A stretch of 64,000 nucleotides of DNA from Plumapathes pennacea (Eukaryota > Cnidaria > Anthozoa > Antipatharia > Myriopathidae), in assembly GCA_964036295.1 (NCBI GenBank), contig OZ038463.1, positions 6,997,274-7,061,273 of the forward strand. Direction: 5' to 3'. The position numbers and the translations under genes are program-made. Positions 2,582 through 43,725 of the stretch are shown one piece after another; within the stretch, counting starts at the first letter, position 1; every line of letters begins with the position of its first letter. The notes beneath the pieces were generated by a model, which had not been told where the DNA came from, made no database searches, and worked only from the letters and a program-made list of their open reading frames with translations.

Positions 2582-3900
2582 TAGTCTATACTGGGAGCCG
2601 GGTCCTACAGTAGGCATCTTGGTTTGGACGAACCTGTGATTTGCGCGCCTTTAACTCTCTTGCAGTGGCTGTTTATATAGCACACTTCAGTTACAGATGC
2701 GTCAATGTTCCACTCCCCAGTCCCTTTTGGGTTCCATGACGGCTCGAGTTTAAGAAAACTTTTTCCCGTTTCGAAGTTGAACGCCTCGTTGTTCACAGTG
2801 CTCGGGCTTCCACGAAAAATCCCACTGAAGTGAATTTGAGGATAATTGAGGTACGACATGTAGTCGACATCTCCTGTAGAAAGTGAGACGAGAAATATTG
2901 CAATAATTTTAGATGGTGTGGTTAATGCCCCTTCAAGTAGAGACCGTGGTAGCTGATAAGCTTATACTGAACAGATTGATTGACGCAAGAAATCAAGAGA
3001 ATATAAACTCGTTTTGATAAGCAATGGCTCTCTCATCCTAGTCTTTAATGATCTTTTCTCTAGTTTATGTGCTATCTTTGGCTCTGACTAGTTATATCAT
3101 AATTGCTACCTTTTCTATGGGGAAATTTCAGTCGTATTCAGATACCACTTTGAATTCTCCCATTCAAGGTGTCACTTTTAAAGATTTGAGAGTACTCTGG
3201 TACTCAACAGCAACCAATGGTACCAACTTACCAGAGCAACCTTTATCAGCGTTGCACTCTTGTGTGTCATCTTTGGAAGACTCGCTGTAACTGCTAAAGA
3301 AGGCTAAAAATACAAAACATTCTCAATCTATTTTATTGATGTGGATTAAATGACAGGAACGTAAGAAAATTCCAGCTAGCAAGTTCTGTCCTGGTTACTA
3401 TATGAACACTCAGCCATTTCCTAAAGGGAAACAGAAAATTGATAATGCATCGTCTGAAGCTAAAAATAACTGACTGCAGGTTATATTCGCTAGCTGACAC
3501 TTTTGCAGATTCAACCTGTCTGCCGTTAGTCACCACACTCTTATACACACAGGTGTTTCGCGTCACGTTAATGTTCTTGTTATCCCCACATCAGTTTAAA
3601 AGCAAAAGAGGATAAACAGGGTAATCCCTTTATCACATTTTTTAAACTGGTTCCTTTTATCGGATGACTGCTAATTAAACTTCTCTAAGATTTTACATCC
3701 ATGCATGGTCCAGTTATTTAAGGAGCGGCTGCCTTAATTGCGCATCTACTTCCTTACTCGGCTAGTCATATAACAGCGCACGTCACTAAGTGCACGTAAT
3801 ATAGCATATGCATTATGCAATGAGTTTTGCAGGATTTTAGGACTATTCATTTTGCCAACTTTGTAATTGGAAATCTTTAGTTTCAAAATTCCAACGTCTG
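2582..3900. repeat. Segmental duplication, left copy (partner 39058-41728)
   Basis: This block carries exon 1 of the VioB-like gene plus its upstream DNA. It matches 39058-41728 collinearly with scattered substitutions. The right copy is about twice as long because it holds three extra insertions. Shared landmarks include the exon, a GATAAGCTTATACTGAACAG-like stretch, and TTTTGCCAACTTTGTAATTG near the end. Confidence 0.9.
2634..2859 (-). CDS. Duplicate exon 1 of a VioB-like gene (partial)
   Basis: The open frame from ATG at 2859 encodes [17 protein letters not shown] and onward, about 75 residues to a candidate donor (ACAG|GTTCGT). Read without splicing it continues ten codons to a stop. It matches exon 1 of the full gene (39114-39339) closely, with differences clustered near the exon end (CYINSHCKR versus CYENRTCIR). 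No homologue of exon 2 was seen between 1 and 2600, where transposons lie. Either this is an orphan exon or a second VioB-like gene continues left of the window. The intact frame suggests recent duplication or constraint. Confidence 0.7.
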
Positions 3901-4446
3901 TTGCTGAAGCTAAATCGGTTTTTGGCACGAGTGGATATTTATTTGATAGTAACTTACTGGGATGGAGTTTTCACTTCCCTTTAATAATGACACCCTCGTA
4001 CCTTATCACTCGATAGTCAAATACTTTGAAAGACACCGAACCGAATCATCAACATGCACGCATCGGTAGTTCAAATGCAAAACTTCTAAGGTTTGATTTT
4101 TGACTTGTATTCCAAAATTTCCCCTTTTTTCAGGCCTGTGTACCAGAATCTGCACCCTATTTGACAAACCAAATACCAATTAAACTAAGCTACTACTTTA
4201 TTCCAAACCAAAGCCACAAAATTGATTGTCTGAAAACTATACCCTTTTGGGTGGCACATACCTATACATGGTTTATATGTGGAAGTAACTTCTCAGTCTT
4301 TGAATTTTTCTGGACGGTTGCTTTTGATCCGGCCAACTAAAATTTCACTGATCTCCTAGCTCATGGCGAGATCGAATAACAGCGCCCTCTTATTCTGTTT
4401 CCCTAATGGTTACTACAGGGATCGAGCTGAAACTTCCAGCTTAACT
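3901..4446. other. Intergenic, nothing recognised
   Basis: AT-rich DNA between the duplicated block and a palindromic element. No coding similarity or repeat was recognised. Confidence 0.5.
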
Positions 4447-4915
4447 TGCGATCAGGCCCTCCTCTCCCTCCCCGGTGGCAAAAAACACGAAAAGATGTAC
4501 CCAGGCTCTCACAGCCAAATTTAATAAATTTCCACTGGTTTGCCGTGATGTGGACTCTTATTTACCACGATTTACGTAATCACATGGTCAAAATGTTGTG
4601 GACTCACGAGGTGCTTCGCCGAGTGAGTTCACAACAAATTTTGACCATGTGATTACGTAAATCGTGGTAAATAAGAGTCCACACCACGGCAAACCATTGG
4701 AAATTTGTTTTTTACCACAATATTTTGAAATATACAAGAAAGATTCGTTGTATTTCGTTGCAATGCGTGGCGCGCTGGCGTCAGCTGGCGTCATATCGAT
4801 GTCTGGACTCTTATTTACCACTGTTAATCGACCAATCAGTGAGCGAGAAACTAGTGAGTTGTGGTAAAAATATATTTTTGTCTTTTTCACCAGGGAAAGG
4901 AGGGGCTGATTGCAG
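4447..4915. mobile_element. Palindromic element with long internal hairpin
   Basis: The ends are imperfect inverted repeats (GCGATCAGGCCCTCCTCTCC versus GCAATCAGCCCCTCCTTTCC, reading inward). Inside, 4523-4710 is a long palindrome with about 75-bp arms containing CTCTTATTTACCACGATTTA. The arm sequence recurs at about 16560-16680 beside a THAP-domain relic, which suggests a P-element-like parent. No reading frame of interest was seen. Confidence 0.75.
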
Positions 4916-13969: not shown

Positions 13970-14450
13970 TTAATAAGGTATCTGATTTATGTTTACTCAA
14001 AGCTTGACTTCGGTTATGAGGGCAAAATTTCAGCGGATTTTACAGAATGTACCTTTTGGCAAGCTGATTTTAGATGTTCCATTATTATAATGACCGTCAA
14101 TAAAATATTTCTCCGCTTTGTTTATAACGCTGGTTGTTCCGGTTACTACAGTAACGATATTATTCCTCATTGGATCAAGTGTGTTTTCGTTTATACTCGT
14201 TGCCGTCGCCTCTTCAGTCCTGTATTTTAAATTAGTTTTTCTAAGAGCCTGTCGCGGTACGTACCTGTTACTTCATTTGACAGTTGTGTAGTGATGATAA
14301 AGAGCAGAGTTGCGTAGCAAAATCTGGAGAGAATCATCGTGCTGGGCGCCTCCGATATCGAGCAGTCTGCAAATAAATGACGTTTTACCAGAATCAAGTC
14401 AAAGGAATCTGATTGGTTGATATATTTAACACGGGGCATGAGGCGTGTCT
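13970..14450. repeat. Segmental duplication, left copy (partner 42879-43725)
   Basis: Begins AAGGTATCTGATTTATGTTT and ends near ATATTTAACACGGGG. It is collinear with 42879-43725, where an extra block of about 320 bp (about 43110-43450) interrupts the match. It includes a signal-peptide-coding exon on the minus strand. Confidence 0.85.
14265..14337 (-). CDS. Signal-peptide first exon of an unknown secreted protein
   Basis: ATG at 14337 opens MILSRFCYATLLFIITTQLS then NEVTG, a short basic start and a hydrophobic core as in a signal peptide. The exon ends at ACAG|GTACGT, a near-ideal donor, in phase 1, which is common for first exons of secreted proteins. The duplicate at 43531-43606 keeps the frame, the hydrophobic core and the same donor although the surrounding DNA has diverged. 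The downstream exons, expected at lower coordinates, were not recognised. The product is unknown, and this copy may be orphaned. Confidence 0.55.
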
Positions 14451-19572: not shown

Positions 19573-20628
19573 TTAACTGAGAACTGACAGTGAAATTCTT
19601 CCCTGTGGACCTTTAACAACTACTGCAGGTTGTCGAGTTGCGGCAGCAGCGGTCTGGTTTGTCTGATTTTCCACCTCGCTCTTTGTGCACCTCAGGACGT
19701 TTGCAAATGCTCGTTTAAACTGAGGATTCATCACGCCGTAAATCATTGGGTTGGCTCCACTGCTACAAAAGACCAAGAAAACTACCACAGTATTTACAAA
19801 TCCAGGAGGAGCGCCGAAAATGGTTTCGGACAAATTAACCAACGCCCCTGGTGCCCAGCACGCGGCGTAAACGCATACCACGGTAAATGTCGCTTTCAAA
19901 AGTTTGATGTCCGTAGGTCGGGACAGTGTGTTAAGGCTTACGGTAGAAGCATTTTGAGCCACATAAGTACTTAAACTGTTCGAGCTGGCTCTCACCTTGC
20001 GGTAGATCTTGTAATAGCAAAACACAATCACGCCAGATATGCTGCAGAACAGAATCCCCACAAATACAATAGCATACGAAATATTCTCCATTTTCCATAC
20101 AAGAGTACACAGAGCCGCGCGCTGATGATAAGCGTATTGTCCCCAGCCATACAGGGGTGGGGTTGAGAACAACACAGCTAACAGCCACACAGAAACGCTG
20201 TAGACTCGCGCAATTCCTAGGCTGGGGAAAAACTTAGGATAGATGTTGGGCTTGACGACTTTCAGATAACGGTTCACGGCTATTACTCCCATTGTCCATA
20301 CGGAAGCGTTTGCACAAATAAATTGCGTGGTTGCAGTCCACTCACAAAGTTCAGTGCTGAAATTCCAACGTCCAGTGTACAAAGTGACAATCCAAAAGGG
20401 CATGACCAACGCAGCCATGCAGATATCCGTCCACGCCAAATTGTGGATGAAAACGTTGGTGATATTTTTGAGTTGAGAGTCTTTGTGAATCACAAATACG
20501 ACCAGAAAGTTGCCCAGAATAGACACTAGGCAAATAAAAGCGGCGAAAAACACTTCAAAGCCAATCTGTACCTTGCTTCGTCCAAGGAGGTCCGATGTGA
20601 TCAAGTTAGTACTGTTGTTACTTGCCAT
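19573..20628 (-). CDS. Rhodopsin-family GPCR, melatonin-receptor-like (single exon)
   Basis: 351 residues, complete and intronless. Class A landmarks: TM1 GN at 39-40; TM2 LAWTD at 64-68; Cys95 and Cys174 for the extracellular disulfide; NRY at 119-121 in place of DRY; CWAP at 257-260 in TM6; NPMIY at 293-297 in TM7; then helix 8 with Cys314 as a possible lipid anchor. NNST at 4-7 gives N-terminal glycosylation sites. NRY is typical of melatonin receptors, whereas NPxxY is the general class A form (melatonin receptors usually have NAxxY). There is no lysine at the retinal-binding position of TM7, so it is not an opsin. The ATG sits in a strong context (AACCATGG). The ligand is unknown; cnidarians have many such orphan receptors. 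Confidence 0.92.
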   Translation of the reverse strand: MASNNSTNLITSDLLGRSKVQIGFEVFFAAFICLVSILGNFLVVFVIHKDSQLKNITNVFIHNLAWTDICMAALVMPFWIVTLYTGRWNFSTELCEWTATTQFICANASVWTMGVIAVNRYLKVVKPNIYPKFFPSLGIARVYSVSVWLLAVLFSTPPLYGWGQYAYHQRAALCTLVWKMENISYAIVFVGILFCSISGVIVFCYYKIYRKVRASSNSLSTYVAQNASTVSLNTLSRPTDIKLLKATFTVVCVYAACWAPGALVNLSETIFGAPPGFVNTVVVFLVFCSSGANPMIYGVMNPQFKRAFANVLRCTKSEVENQTNQTAAAATRQPAVVVKGPQGRISLSVLS

Positions 20629-20675
20629 GGTTTACAACTAAAATATAACAAGCGGCGGATATATATTTGAATGCT
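20629..20675 (-). promoter_or_regulatory. Possible TATA box upstream of the GPCR
   Basis: On the minus strand AAATATATATCC lies about 40 bases before the ATG. This would require a very short 5' leader, so it may be just AT-rich DNA. Confidence 0.25.
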
Positions 20676-33470: not shown

Positions 33471-36400
33471 TCAAGGAGTAAAGGTAAAAGTTGGACCAGC
33501 ATTGGGTCCAATTTCTGAGTTTCCATCGTCATCAATTGGAGTGCGCACCAGGTTCTTCAAGTGTAACTCAACCGTGTGCATGAGTCCAAGAGCGTCGTCC
33601 ATTCGTTCGTCTCCTCCACCGTTAAACGCATCGTGCAAAACTTTAAGTAGCTTTGTGTAAGCTTTGTTAAAAAGAACTGCGTTGTAGTATGCGCGAGAGC
33701 CTGGCTTGTACATAGACATCTTAGGACTGTTGATCATTGGCCACACACTGCCTTTGTCAAAAGGGATTTTGGGGCCATCAAATGCGAAGGTGTAATTGAT
33801 ATTACATTCCTACATAAAAACAATGGCAAGATATGTACATATTTGTTAATATAAGGTTTTTGTAATGATACGCCCAGAAGGATGATTGACTTCGATAGTT
33901 ATTTGATTTGACTTGAGATTTGGCTCTCTAAAATGTGATTTCATATCTTCTAGAGAACTACAAGCACTTTACAGTGAAAAGTACTGCACACAAAAATAAG
34001 TGATCCTCCCCAAACTCCTGCCATAATTTTTAAGGCCCTCCCCTTTTGGGTTACATAAACCAGTGACCCTCCCCACCCCCTCCCCCCATTCTAATTAATA
34101 GCCAGTCCCTTATTCACATGGACGTTTAGCGTATTATTAAATACAAAAACGTTTTACGACTGCGCGTTGGCGCAGACCAAAATCGTAAAAAGTGAGAAGA
34201 CAATAAAATATTTAGAGAATAAGCAATCGATTTCCATTCGATAGGTAGCATTATTAACGTGCCTTCTCTAGAATACACATTTTATTATCTAAAAGTGTCA
34301 TTATTTTCTTGCTTACCTTTTCAAGCCTTATAGCTGACTCATCGTCTGACTGTGGCTTTCGATCTTTGTGGATACGGAGCTGTTTTTTCTCGACAATGCA
34401 CTTAAATAGGTAGTAATGCGACAGCTGCCTTTTCTTGTCAAGTGCATGGAAAGGATTGCATACAGAAGACCCTTCTCCTTGTTCTACAATTTCATTAATT
34501 GCAGCCAAGGCAGATTTCAAGTCGGTAACTTTGATTAACTCCCCCAGTCCATACCTGTTTTTAAACTTCTTCCACTGCAGTTGCCTACTTTCAACACCTA
34601 AATACATAATATAAAATGAGTGTGAGTTATGGCGACTGCATTCATTGTTATTTGACGCACATAGCACTTAAAAGTAACAAAAATAACATTCGACTGACAC
34701 CCAACCCCTAAACAGTACCAAGTCACATAAAAATGTCAGCGTTTGATATTGAGCACCCTAAGCGGTACCCAAATCCGTGATTTTGCACCTCTAAGAGGTA
34801 AGTGCGACGAGCATCCCCGTCTCTTTTTTTATCAGTCTCGGGCCATCACCCTTTTACCTACCCACACACACGCTCAATCCGCACACATGGACACACTGTC
34901 TTCCACTCCCTGAGCCAGCGCGAGCATCGGTTCTGAATTACAGTTCTATTCGGGTAAGTGGCCCGGCAGACAAACCTTTATCAAATACTATTAACTTATA
35001 TATAGTATTAGTTAATATTCTTACCTTGTGGAAATAAGTTTTCGTCTCGGTCGTTCAAAACCTTTAACTGCAGTTTAACATGCTCGTAGAATGAGCCGAT
35101 GCTGTTGGATTCATTGATGAATGAAGGCTGGACGTCTTGATTTTTAACAGGATAAAGTAAATATCTTGCTCGGTTTCGGGTGGCCGCGTAACCTCTGTGA
35201 TCGAAGGTTGGCTTGTACTCCGAAAGGTAAGGAGCTTCTTCTGGTTGAACATCACCGGAATGATTGTCCGCCGAATAGTAAGACGGCTGTTCAATCTTCA
35301 TAAAAACGTTTCTGATAAGCGACAAGGAACACGGTTCGATGGGAACGGCAAGATCAGGTTGAACTCCACCGGGCAGCTGTGAAGGATAATCTGGGATAAA
35401 GCCATCATAATAGAGGTTGGGCTGGCCTCCGATCGCGTTCAGGATGTTTGCTACGAGCCCCATGTGTAACATTTCTTGAACGAGGACAGTTTTAAGAATA
35501 AACTGTACCTCAGAGTTACAGATATCTTTAATTGTAGCCAGGGCCGTCAGATACGGTGGAATAGTAGCGTGCTCGACTTCCAGGGCGATTTGCAAGTCCT
35601 TTTTTAGCTGTTTAACGGTGTAGTCGGCGGCACTAAATTGTCCTATAGGAAGATCTAGGTTATCCAACCAACGGTTAATAACCTTCAGCTTGGCCTTTGA
35701 AAGGTCACGGGTTGCGGGCATGTAGTTTGCATTGTGAATTGGCAAATTTAGGGTCATCTTTATGACGATCCTATGACTTTTTACCTGGTAGTAGTCTCCA
35801 AGATCGACAAAATTCTCGGTCATAACAGGGTACAGAACTGCGTACTGCTTAAATATGGGGTAGATTTGTGCCAGCCACGTCGGGGACGGTACGTCTAGGT
35901 AGTCGTCATAAACTTTAATCACTATGACGTTATCAAGGCTTTCGTCATCAGCAGGGGGACCACCTACCACGCTGTAGCAGAAGCCGTATAACTGACCATC
36001 AATGTAACGACGCTGCTGATTCGGATCAATAGTCTTAATTTTCACAGTGGCAATTCCGTTTCCGTCTGTCTTGATCTTTCCAGGTTTAGGTAAAGAAGGC
36101 AGTCCCACAAGTGGCCAGCCCTTAAGTACTCCGAACACTTTCAAGCACTCCTGGAATTCTATCTCTTTGTTCGGGACCTCCTGCCCAAATTGAGTCACCA
36201 CAAATTGAAATTCAGCGACGTCGCCTGCTTCATAACGGTTAGTCCATCTGCTAAATGGGTGCACGTGAAGTCCATTCTGGTGTTCTGCCAGGAGCACCCT
36301 AGAACAAGTTACTTCTGGCCAATTACCTTTGACCTGTTGCGATACAATAATTCCACCGCAAAGAGATGAGAAGTCGCATCGAAAGAAGAAAGATGGAGGA

Positions 36401-39339
36401 AGAAAGAAAGGCTGGGGAAGAAAAAGAAGAGGAGGGGAGCGGTATGACATGGAGACTGAAGATAAGATCAGAGAAAGAAAGAAATGGATGAGTGGATGGA
36501 TGGATAAATGGGTGGGTGAGTGGATGGATGGATGGATGGATGGATGGATTACTTTTATTTATACAAGATTATTATAAAGGCATACAGCATCAAAAATTGC
36601 TGACAAGGTATTTGAGAATAGCTCGTCTTCTGCACCTCACGAAAATTTAAGCGATGTTGGCCAAACTCCTTAAAAGTTTTAGTTCCCGAAAAACCTCCTT
36701 TTTGCGAAAATCTTTCATCGATCTGACCTAGATCGCACTCTGCCTTTAACGTGTATGAAAAACATAATAGTAGATCTGCATTCTTCAGTGCCAAGACCTT
36801 TTCAAGGATTTACAGTACTAGTCTGCTCGCAGCCGTTTTTGTGGTGCACAAGGTGTTGCGACCACAAAAACGGCTGCGAGCAGACTAATACAGTACGTGT
36901 AAATACTTAAAATAGCAACGCTACAATTCTCTTTTTCTGACAATAATTTTGAGGGACGCACAAATCTTTTTTGAGACCTTAAAATGGGGCACAAGGTGAA
37001 AGGAAACACCAACAAGAAAAAGACCAAATTAACAACATAAAAGGACTCCAAGAACATGAACTTAGAGAATATAGAAACAACACAACAAGCGGTAAGAGCG
37101 AGAAAAATTCTAAGAACTACAAGGAAAGATAAAGAAGGAAGATTGAAACATTAACTACTTACCTCTAAAAGCACCAGCGGACGTTCATGTATAAGCTTTT
37201 CTTGCTCCTCGTTGAAGACGCCAATGGATGGAAATCTCTGGATACCCGCTGAAGTCTCATACCAGTCAGGCACACGTTTGTTGTCGACCACACCGAGCCA
37301 CAATAGCTCGTCGTCACAATCAAAGTTTGGAGCGTCTGTCGTATCAACTGCAAGCACGAGCGAATCCAGTAGCGTTGACATGTCCCCACTGGATGTGATT
37401 GGCAGGCTGTTACCAAAGTCAACAAGAACTCTGAAAGAGACAGGGATAATTTTAACATAATAAAGTAACGTGGTTTATAAGTTTGGTCTGAACTGACATG
37501 AATCAGAAAATGAATAGACAATAATATGTATCAAGGGCGGATCCAGGACTTTTGCAAAGGGGGACTGGAGGATTTGAAGCGAAATTTTGCTCTTGGTTGG
37601 GATCGAGTATGGTTGAACGCCGAAGGCGTGAGCTATTGGGGGGAGGGGGGAGGGATTGCCATTTCCAGTGTTTTGAGGCAATTTTGGAGCACAGTAAAGA
37701 GTCTTGTTATCAAACGCGACATACTTTATTTTACGCAGAGCTAGAAAGCACTTCTTTATATATATTGCATAATTTTCTATCATAATATTCATACTTTTTT
37801 TTGCTACTCCAAAGGGGGGTGGCTAGTCACCAAATCCACCCCATCCCTCCCCTAAATCCTCCCATGTAAATACAATAATAATTAATATGTAATTAGGCAC
37901 GTGACTTACTGCTTACAAAGGCAGCGTTTCTTACATTTTGTTACGTGTATCCATAATGAAAGGAGCATTTTGTACTGCCTCATCCCTGGTCAATAACATG
38001 CGTCCGCGACCAACAAAGAAAGGAGGTGCTTTACTGCCATGAACACCTATGACTCCTGTTAGACGCCCCCATGTAAAATTGGCCCAGGTGTCGTCGTCCG
38101 AATAGAGGTCAAGGTTGAGATGAATGGAAAACTCAATATTTTCCTCAGAAGTAAATGGACGTCTCATTTGGTCAACCACCTCTTTTAGTTCATGATTTGT
38201 TTCGTTCTGAAGCCAACGGAAGTTATTCAATACCGAAGTATACGCAGCTCCGAACGAGTGATCGCCACTAGAATGGAGCAATTTTGTCCAAAGGCCATGA
38301 AACGCAACGGGTTTATAGTCGGCTTCAAAGGAATTTCCGACTTGAACTCTCCATCCCCAAATCTCACTAAACGTTTGGGCTGCAACATCGAGGTCTACTA
38401 GTTTTGCGAAACTGTGCATTCCCACATCTATGAAGTAAAGTTGAAACTCTCTTAGTTTGAGCTTCACAAAAATAAATAGTATTAGTAACAGTGCTATAGT
38501 GGATATTTAATTAAATATTAACACAATGTATAAACATTATAATTACCTATACTTAGCGCATATATCATGTTTTTCTAGTGTACAGTGAAAACCCGCCTTA
38601 CGGCCACTCCCCGTTATTACGGCCATTTCTTATGCCCATGCAGCTATTACGCCCAGTCATTTTATTAACTGGAAACCCCGTTAATCCGGACAAAATAACA
38701 TTATCTATGCTAAAATACTTTATAACAAAAGAACATTAAACGTAACTGATGATTGGCTCGAACGAAGGAGAAGCTAGTCGAAACTCGTCTTTTTTTTTTG
38801 TTTTTCTTCAAACCGTCTACATTGAGTTAGTTACATTGTTGGCTGTTGAAAGTGAACTAGGAGAGCTTCGTTTAGTATAGTACTGTAAGAATTTGAAACT
38901 TTGTTCCTGTTTACAAAAAAAAACAGTTTTGTTCACCTTAATATGGTTATCTAATATGATATCTTTATTCTGCGCACTAGATGCTCACAAATATAGTATA
39001 TTTTAGGACAGATTTCATCGATCCTGACATTACTTAATGTATATACATATATATTAGTCTATAGTCTATACTGGGAGACGGGTCCTACAGTAAGGTTCTT
39101 GGTTTGGACGAACCTGTGATTTGCGCGCCTTTAACTCTTATGCAGGTGCGGTTCTCATAGCACACTTCAGTTACAGATGCGTCAGTGTTCCACTCCCCAG
39201 TCCCCTTCGGGTTCCATGACGGCTTGAGTTTAAGAAAACTTTTTCCCGTTTCGAAGTTGAACGCCTCGTTGTTCACAGTGCTCGGGCTTCCACGAAAAAT
39301 CCCACTGAAGTGAATTTGAGGATAATTGAGGTAGGACAT
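33471..39339 (-). CDS. VioB/RebD-like protein with ferritin-like domain, six exons
   Basis: Exons 39114-39339, 37935-38448, 37163-37430, 35025-36333, 34317-34597, 33471-33809 join with consistent phases (1,2,0,1,0) into about 978 residues, close to bacterial VioB (about 1,000). The start [17 protein letters not shown] matches the family's N-terminal motif, and [16 protein letters not shown] in exon 3 fits the middle region. [12 protein letters not shown] leads into the ferritin-like region: [19 protein letters not shown] (about 588-606), [18 protein letters not shown] (about 622-639), FYEHV (about 752), [15 protein letters not shown] (about 808-837). Glu and ExxH residues there are candidate metal ligands. 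Family members (VioB, RebD, StaD) couple oxidised tryptophan units; other ferritin-like homologues are unassigned. An intron-rich gene with this layout suggests ancient transfer from bacteria. The exon 1-2 junction is the least certain. Substrate unknown. Confidence 0.85.
36486..36549 (+). repeat. (GGAT)n microsatellite in intron 3
   Basis: GGATGGATGGAT with interruptions, inside intron 3 (between exons 4 and 3 on the plus map) of the VioB-like gene. Confidence 0.95.
36819..36887. mobile_element. 69-bp hairpin MITE
   Basis: Perfect 27-base arms TAGTCTGCTCGCAGCCG..TTTGTGGT and complement around a 15-base loop, in an intron of the VioB-like gene. TACAGTA occurs just outside both arms as a possible target duplication. 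Confidence 0.85.
38580..38700. mobile_element. Mariner/Tigger-type MITE fragment
   Basis: TACAGTGAAAACCCGCCTTA with repeated TTACGGCC/TTACGCCC units, in intron 1 of the VioB-like gene. The right end was not identified. Confidence 0.45.
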
Positions 39340-39390
39340 GTAGTCGACATCTCCTGTAGAAAGTGAGACGAGAATATTGCAACATTTTTA

Positions 39391-39970: not shown

Positions 39971-40192
39971 GGTGCGTTCGACTGACCGTATTCCGGAATA
40001 GGAATACCTAAAATGATCCAAAGTTTTGCTTGTTCTGGGGAAAACAACTTTCGGGATTGTTTCAAAACCTTCAAGCTGACAATTCGAACAGCTCCCGATA
40101 CATCTCGACATAATTCAGCTTCAAAGCAAAATATTTTATTAATCAGTATCGCTATTCCTATTCCGGAATAAACCCAATTAAACGCGCCCCTA
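39971..40192. mobile_element. 222-bp MITE with CCGGAATA motifs
   Basis: Starts GGTGCGTTCGACTGACCG..TTCCGGAATAGGAATA and ends TATTCCTATTCCGGAATAAA..AACGCGCCCC. CTAG flanks both sides. The left duplicate reads CATCCTAGTCTTTAATG without it. Confidence 0.8.
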
Positions 40193-40963
40193 GACTATAG
40201 TGATTTTTTCTCAAGTTTCATGCGCTACCTTTGGCTCTGACTAGTTGTTATAATTGCTATCTTTTCCATGCTATGGGAAAATTTCTGTCGTACAGATACC
40301 ACTTTAAATTCTCCTATTCAAGGTGTCAGTTATAAAAGATTTGCGAGTATACTCTGGTGCTCCACAGCAACAAGGGATAACTTACCAGAACAATCTTCAT
40401 CAGCGTTGCACTCCTGTGTGTCGTCTTTGGAAGACTTACTGTAACTGCTAAAGAAGCCGGCTAAAAATGCAAAACATGTTCAATCGATATCTAATTTATT
40501 GATGTGGATTAAATGACAGGAACGTAAGAAAAGTTCAGCTAGCACTAAGTTCTGTTCTGGTTACTATATGAACACTCGGCCATTTATTAAAGGGAAACAG
40601 AAAAATTATAACGCATCGTCTAAAGCTGAAAATAACTGTCCGCAGGTTATTCGCTAAGCTGACGTTTGCAGATTCAACCTGTCTGCCGTTAGTCACCACA
40701 CATGGGGTGTATTGGACAGCCTTCTCACACATATGTTCTGAGTCACTTTAATATTCTTGTTATCACATCAGTTAAAAACAAATAAAAAGGATAAACCGGG
40801 TAAAATCCCTTTATCCTGTATTCCAAACTGGTTCATCGGGTGACCGCTAATTAAACTTGTTAATCTCCATTTTTTTACATCCATGGTCTAGTTATCAAAG
40901 GAGCGGCTGTAAATTTATTACTCGTCGTTTCCAAGTTGTCTCCATTGCGCGGCTACTTCAACC

Positions 40964-42878: not shown

Positions 42879-43725
42879 ATTATAAGGTATCTGATTTATG
42901 TTTACTCTGAGCTGACTTTGGTTATGAGGCAAAAATTTCAGCGGATTTTACAGAATGTACATTTGGCAAGCTGATCTATATGTTCCATTTATTAATATAA
43001 TGACCAATCAGTAAAGTGTTTTTCCGCTTTCTTAACGCTCCTTGTTCCGGTTACTATAGTTACGACATTATTCCGCATTGGATCAAGTGTTTTCGTTTAT
43101 ACTCTGTGCAACTGATTTCAAAACTATAACTATAAGAAGGTGCAATTCATCCGTTTTGTTTCCTCTCATGGCTCTTGTTTGTCTGTAACCTGCGAATACA
43201 GCCTCTCCTGCCGAGCAGCTTTCGAGTTCCCCGAGAGAGAGACGCACTGATTAGCTTCGGGCTTGTTCGCCTTGCGGAACTGTGTTTCTAGTCTAACAGG
43301 AAAAACTAGGACGGCAAACCAGGAAAACTGTCTCCGTATTCTCGTCGAATACCATATAAATTAGCTGAAACAACAGATTTTGCTCATTTGCACCGTATTC
43401 AACGCATGTGAAGTTAAAACCGACCTATTAAGAGATCGTCTTCTGCAACTGATTTGATCGTTTCACAGACGTTGCCTCTTCCGTCCTGTATCTTAAATTA
43501 GTTTTTGTAAGGGCCGGTCGCGGTACGTACCTGTCACTTCACTAAGCAGTTGTGTAGTGATTATGAAGAACAGAGTCGCGTTGCAAAATCTGGAGAGAAC
43601 CAACATGTTGGCGCCTCCGATGTCGAACGTCTGCGAATAAATTACGTTTTTACCAGAATCGAGTCAAATGAATCTGATTGGTCGATATATTTAACACGGG
43701 GTATGAGGAACTCAATGCCTGCCTA
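42879..43725. repeat. Segmental duplication, right copy (partner 13970-14450)
   Basis: Matches the left copy, with an extra block of about 320 bases (about 43110-43450) bordered by CTGCAACTGATTT on both sides. It holds the second signal-peptide exon. Confidence 0.85.
43531..43606 (-). CDS. Signal-peptide first exon, second copy
   Basis: MLVLSRFCNATLFFIITTQL then LSEVTG, ending ACAG|GTACGT in phase 1. It has one codon more than 14265-14337. Conservation of start, hydrophobic core, donor and phase between diverged copies argues that this is a real exon. The rest of the gene was not recognised at lower coordinates. Confidence 0.55.

Follow-up and report, generated by a model that had tools for sequence, protein, structure and literature searches.

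In the making of the purple pigment violacein, the enzyme VioB couples two tryptophan units, and characterised members of the VioB/RebD superfamily build pigments and antitumour compounds. Here we analyse a gene of the antipatharian Plumapathes pennacea that is distantly related to these proteins. It lies in a 64,000-nucleotide stretch of DNA (the window; contig OZ038463.1, G000:C2:6997274-7061273) within a 290-Mb, 24-contig genome. An earlier note on this DNA had described a VioB/RebD-type homologue encoded by an intron-containing animal gene. We find that the gene belongs to a small family in this genome, of which at least two members appear intact and probably secreted; its nearest relatives in our searches are uncharacterised proteins of bacteria.

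Rebuilt with splice signals and predicted from the DNA letters alone, the gene comprises eight exons on the minus strand (43606-33471) and encodes 1026 residues. Each of the seven introns keeps the frame and has GT-AG ends; their phases are 1, 1, 1, 2, 0, 1 and 0. The exons, in window coordinates, are as follows.

43531..43606, minus strand: exon 1 (predicted), ATG and signal-peptide-like hydrophobic segment (MLVLSRFCNATLFFIITTQLLSEVTA); donor gtacgtac; counterpart in the tandem paralogue at 14337
40386..40460, minus strand: exon 2, short linker with two Cys (GFFSSYSKSSKDDTQECNADEDCSG); paralogue counterpart at 3303-3232
39114..39353, minus strand: exon 3, the conserved protein begins here (Met 56); donor gttcgtcc
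37935..38427, minus strand: exon 4, N-terminal part; a bacterial relative's model is beta-rich here
37163..37430, minus strand: exon 5, N-terminal part, likewise beta-rich in that model
35025..36333, minus strand: exon 6, immunoglobulin (Ig)-like region (by the bacterial model), YMPATRDLS and start of the ferritin-like domain, with E638, E671, H674 and E732
34317..34597, minus strand: exon 7, where the PF12902 match ends; contains E862 (EQGEG) and H881 (SHYY)
33471..33809, minus strand: exon 8, C-terminal end and stop TGA

The six same-strand exons of about 978 residues proposed earlier are present with their matching phases and motifs, but they are exons 3-8 of eight: the start Met proposed then (39339) is Met 56 of our model, 14 bases inside exon 3, whose acceptor ends at 39354 (ctcactttctacag). 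Exons 1 and 2 add the hydrophobic start and the short linker upstream of Met 56. The signal-peptide-like exon and the multi-copy family were absent from the earlier note. Given this start, called by eye, the product probably enters the secretory pathway; a similar exon 1 in the tandem paralogue backs this reading, as do candidate exons upstream of two C7 copies, found in a crude hydrophobicity scan covering up to 6 kb per locus (1.9 kb for C2b, the copy at 5.54 Mb on C2). The gene is real and intact as a model; the PF12902 match described below and the shared eight-exon layout of a tandem paralogue put it far beyond chance.

PF12902 (Ferritin-like) is the sole Pfam family above cut-off in the protein, where it passes the gathering threshold with 184.1 bits (cut-off 22.3, E 4.5e-54, residues 631-889). 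For comparison with VioB we used the NCBIfam equivalog TIGR04492 (iminophenyl-pyruvate dimer synthase); 14 loci among 195 genomes exceed its 1250-bit cut-off (1779-1908 bits), and eight were taken as references. RebD-like rows, a label given in this analysis, are the best near full-length matches below that cut-off. In profile comparisons the animal rows align with VioB/RebD over residues 56-1020 (E 5e-26). The N-halves alone match with a probability of 98.6 (E 8.5e-16, 494 columns), and the C-half match (probability 97.5, E 6.2e-12) is colinear with it. As no more than 0.3% was reached by any of nine column shuffles, of which six used the bacterial and three the animal N-half, the VioB/RebD likeness extends past the ferritin-like part, a point the earlier note had singled out for a profile check. 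By these comparisons the window gene is a distant full-length relative of VioB/RebD, at profile level in its upstream half. Identity with VioB itself was tried and rejected, the protein scoring 32.8 bits against the cut-off of 1250; three of its bacterial relatives score 13.9-37.1.

The nearest relatives found, in one scan of genome contigs, form an uncharacterised bacterial family of 45 loci that combine the N-part with a PF12902 C-part and come from Acidobacteriota, Myxococcota, Chloroflexota, Actinomycetota, Pseudomonadota, Bacteroidota and Planctomycetota. In the DNA, both halves occupy one open reading frame (ORF) at 14 of the 45 loci (for example L029 Pyrinomonadaceae, L031 Undibacterium and L042 Actinoplanes) and two adjacent ORFs at 25 (for example L054 Flavobacterium), while one half is lacking at six in the DNA or ORFs examined. 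The animal and bacterial profiles align with a hhalign E of 2e-181 over 874 columns. Parts follow in the same order over the whole length, the same E/H positions recur, and the best aligned stretches of the one-ORF matches L029-L031 are 38-43% identical to the window protein. The bacterial proteins seem to start at [MV][ST]YL and have neither signal-peptide segment nor introns, whereas the window gene has introns and a signal-peptide-like start. No Pfam family scored above cut-off in the N-part of the four bacterial proteins tested. By sequence, the window gene belongs with this separate family and not with the VioB/RebD type, so that of the homology first proposed the distant full-length relationship stands and the type membership falls. 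The Pyrinomonadaceae contig of L029 also holds a second PF12902-type gene (3389-4870), about 4 kb upstream of the main one, which in a tree stands on a long branch, placed between VioB/RebD and that family.

Some bacterial loci lie near ebo genes. Genes of this type are found within 10 kb at eight of the 45 loci (three Undibacterium, four Flavobacterium, one Alteromonas). Scans of one representative of each neighbour cluster returned EboE (442.9 bits, cut-off 250), the EboA domain (135.1, cut-off 50) and a dehydroquinate-synthase-like protein (565.6, cut-off 333); EboC (360.5, cut-off 250) is also present in all four Flavobacterium loci. The Alteromonas locus (L065) carries three N-part gene copies beside its ebo-type genes. 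The ebo genes help transport a scytonemin precursor to the periplasm, and a Pseudomonas fluorescens cluster containing ebo gives the bacterium resistance to nematode predation (PMC6282210). The words ferritin and VioB do not occur in the main text of that paper or of one on eustigmatophyte ebo genes (PMC5133447).

The sole PDB sequence match of the window protein is 3hl1 (ferritin-like protein CC_0557 from Caulobacter), which corresponds to the C-terminal part only and whose entry title names no function. In a folded bacterial relative the match to 3hl1 reaches residue 898 of 903, and the model predicts a beta-rich N-terminal part and an Ig-like middle domain. AbyU-type beta-barrel cyclases (7pxo, 5dyq, 5dyv; heme-binding 6le0) served as comparison systems for the N-terminal barrel fold. 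The ferritin-like dimetal pattern E, ExxH, E, E, H appears at homologous places in the window protein (E638, E671xxH674, E732, E862, H881). These six E/H positions are common to the animal, bacterial and VioB/RebD rows of the alignment, which suggests that they form a candidate metal site and agrees with the conserved ligands noted earlier. Other polar positions (Y645, N680, Y800 and Y965) are conserved in the animal rows and in distant bacteria.

PF12902 has 28 matches in the genome and the protein's N-half 43, and paralogues lie on five contigs. Eleven loci match both halves: the window gene, its tandem copy, C2b, one copy each on C5 and C9, and six on C7. Complete stop-free models were checked for two of the eleven, the window gene and the tandem copy. 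The latter is 88% identical to the window gene, with the same eight exons and a single stop, at its end.

14265..14337, minus strand: tandem paralogue exon 1 (MILSRFCYATLLFIITTQLSNEVT)
3232..3303, minus strand: tandem paralogue exon 2, matched to window gene exon 2
2634..2873, minus strand: tandem paralogue exon 3
G000:C2:6993837-6974748, left of the window: tandem paralogue exons 4-8

Compared over 1024 codons with corrected exon boundaries, the tandem copies differ by 0.138 synonymous (dS) and 0.062 nonsynonymous (dN) changes per site; the dN/dS of 0.448 (bootstrap 95% 0.333-0.594) indicates purifying selection between them. Introns at residues 131 (phase 1), 295 (phase 2), 385 (phase 0), 821 (phase 1) and 915 (phase 0) are common to the window, C9, C7g1 and C7g3 genes within one residue, although junctions in the paralogues were picked by script; C9 at 915 and C7g3 at 820 score low, and some low-scoring junctions are unreliable. 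Both C7 genes have an extra intron at residue 255. C2b and the C5 paralogue have those at 131, which follows exon 3, and 385 in common with the window gene; these two (G000:C2:5537883-5539952 and G000:C5:768748-766571) carry long polar inserts before and within the ferritin-like domain and have no intron at 295.

Partial copies also occur. Four C10 loci match the ferritin-like half only, with stops inside two of the matches; this cluster (G000:C10:3382535-3403763) groups inside the clade of animal sequences and looks like a set of copies that have lost their N-half. At C7:584 kb C-terminal exons only were found, and short family matches lie on C2 at 6.87-6.96 Mb. Within the window, segments 3037-3731 and 40189-40909, which surround the exon-2 region in each tandem copy, are 81% identical and mark the duplication. 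A single-exon rhodopsin-type G protein-coupled receptor (GPCR) gene (7tm_1, 153 bits; 19573-20631, minus strand) lies between the copies. The intron between exons 5 and 6 contains a near-perfect 35-base inverted repeat with a 15-base loop (36811-36895), which could be a small transposon remnant.

The likeliest function for the window gene product, which we put forward tentatively, is that of a secreted metal oxidase or metalloenzyme acting on a small molecule. Outside the cell, the ferritin-like domain would bind two metal ions, probably iron, and with O2 or H2O2 oxidise its substrate, a small aromatic compound or amino-acid derivative, and perhaps couple it; the beta-rich domains of the N-terminal part would hold this substrate. 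The product would serve defence, colour or surface chemistry. The gene would have entered, probably once, from a bacterium, as its distribution suggests, then gained introns and a signal peptide, and then been duplicated. In a wider scenario, which we think doubtful, an animal lineage would have acquired a two-part oxidase of the VioB/RebD superfamily from bacteria, added signal peptide and introns, and expanded it to about 11 two-half loci. Their products would couple small molecules oxidatively outside the cell, yielding compounds of a kind not known from animals; the reactive imine and peroxide could come from amine or amino-acid oxidases of the same genome.

Several points weigh against a secreted oxidase. 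In the nearest bacterial family we found no member of known activity, so the idea of small-molecule oxidation is borrowed from remote relatives. Within the window we recognised no pathway partner, as the earlier note had already reported, and the 290-Mb genome gave no match to LodA (PF17990) or, in an intron-blind search, to EboE (NF035939). E862 and H881 stand at a distance of 19 residues instead of forming the usual ExxH, and VioB has been called a heme protein in one report (PMC2810235), which would fit poorly with a non-heme dimetal mechanism. Secretion is judged from sequence only; five of the seven upstream scans, of up to 6 kb, gave no candidate signal exon (C9, C7g3, C2b, C5 and C2par), the C2par exon being situated beyond the 6 kb scanned. 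Some other family loci contain stops within the matches, which may reflect read-through into introns or real damage.

A secreted protein without catalytic activity is the alternative that fares best, although we consider it unlikely. The ferritin-like part would then bind or store metal, form a scaffold or act against microbes by binding iron; the beta domains would bind a partner or surface. The C9 paralogue (G000:C9:16456713-16461239), otherwise colinear, lacks two of the six metal-site positions (E671K, H881N); it is a possible pseudoenzyme, and at least one family copy may therefore have a non-catalytic role, a further point against the oxidase. The ferritin-only copies on C10, the Ig-like middle domain of the bacterial model and the extensive duplication fit the same explanation. 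It accords poorly with the conservation of the ligand set and of Y645, N680, Y800 and Y965 from animals to distant bacteria, and with a dN/dS below 1.

The family was probably acquired from bacteria. The main tree has 39 bacterial, 8 animal and 8 VioB/RebD-like rows. In it a single animal clade (support 100) stands beside the 14 one-ORF bacteria (joint support 95), and VioB/RebD sit on a long branch; L037, L053, L057, L061, L070 and L073, each without one of the halves, were omitted, as were C7 g4, C7 g5, L097-L100 and 8 of the 16 loci L081-L096. The C7 copy at 969-974 kb was not among the sequences compared. A tree of the ferritin-like part places three C10 copies inside the same animal clade (98); the fourth, 3393211, whose match contains two stops, was omitted from it. 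An unrooted careful tree, with 24 of the 39 two-half bacterial rows and no VioB/RebD rows, gives the animals 100/100 and the animals with the one-ORF bacteria 99/98. VioB and RebD are also one-ORF proteins, so this layout is no special tie to any donor. In an approximately unbiased (AU) test with 24 of the two-half bacterial and five VioB/RebD rows, the topology that unites all sister bacteria and leaves the animals outside them had a log-likelihood 1.69 lower and was not rejected (p-AU 0.362). The transfer direction hence rests on distribution and is left unproved by the trees, as is the bacterial-nested position that the earlier note had named as support for transfer. The converse, that the gene is an old one of eukaryotes which most lineages have lost, or that it passed between eukaryotes, strikes us as improbable. 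The unrejected tree suits it, the intron positions common to divergent paralogues point to an old gene, and PF12902 genes are reported to adjoin lodA/lodB in the fungus Gymnopus (PMC4417212). Against it stand bacterial relatives spanning seven phyla versus the one animal clade seen, and the 99/98 grouping of animals with one-ORF bacteria.

That the protein is a true VioB/RebD enzyme we judge very improbable; a separate L-amino-acid oxidase would then turn tryptophan or a related amino acid into imines, and the protein would couple two of these into a bisindole-type product. The colinear full-length homology and the same E/H positions are what such an enzyme would have, and the genome holds amine-oxidase (PF01593) matches, of which seven span nearly the full length within one ORF. 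The equivalog score and the long, separate deep branch speak otherwise, and the probable secretion is a further difference from VioB/RebD. Gene neighbourhoods differ too: an ORF with a flavin adenine dinucleotide (FAD) motif flanks all eight VioB loci in VioA's place and an amine-oxidase-like FAD ORF adjoins five of the eight near full-length RebD-like loci, whereas a clear VioA/RebO-type neighbour is seen at 1 of the 45 nearest-family loci (L062 only). PF01593 has no match on chromosome C2, that of the window, consistent with the earlier report of no VioA-like oxidase in it. On C5, four near full-length single-ORF PF01593 matches stand in a row (G000:C5:17348372-17360621, 234-237 bits), a possible source of imines or peroxide. 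An artefact is scarcely credible: family fragments and stop-holding matches occur elsewhere in the genome and nothing of the kind touches the window gene itself, whose 37.9-Mb contig, spliceosomal introns, paralogues on five contigs, nearby animal-type GPCR gene and intact tandem copy under apparent purifying selection count against a dead gene and refute contamination.

A literature search yielded no paper on such animal genes among the matches listed, gene names in sequence databases lying outside its scope. If our reading is true, a superfamily that we otherwise saw in bacteria, and that has been reported for fungi, has a secreted branch of its own in animals. The window gene would then be a concrete, cloneable candidate for a new animal metabolite, and the uncharacterised bacterial sister family, some members of which lie near ebo genes, would become testable too.
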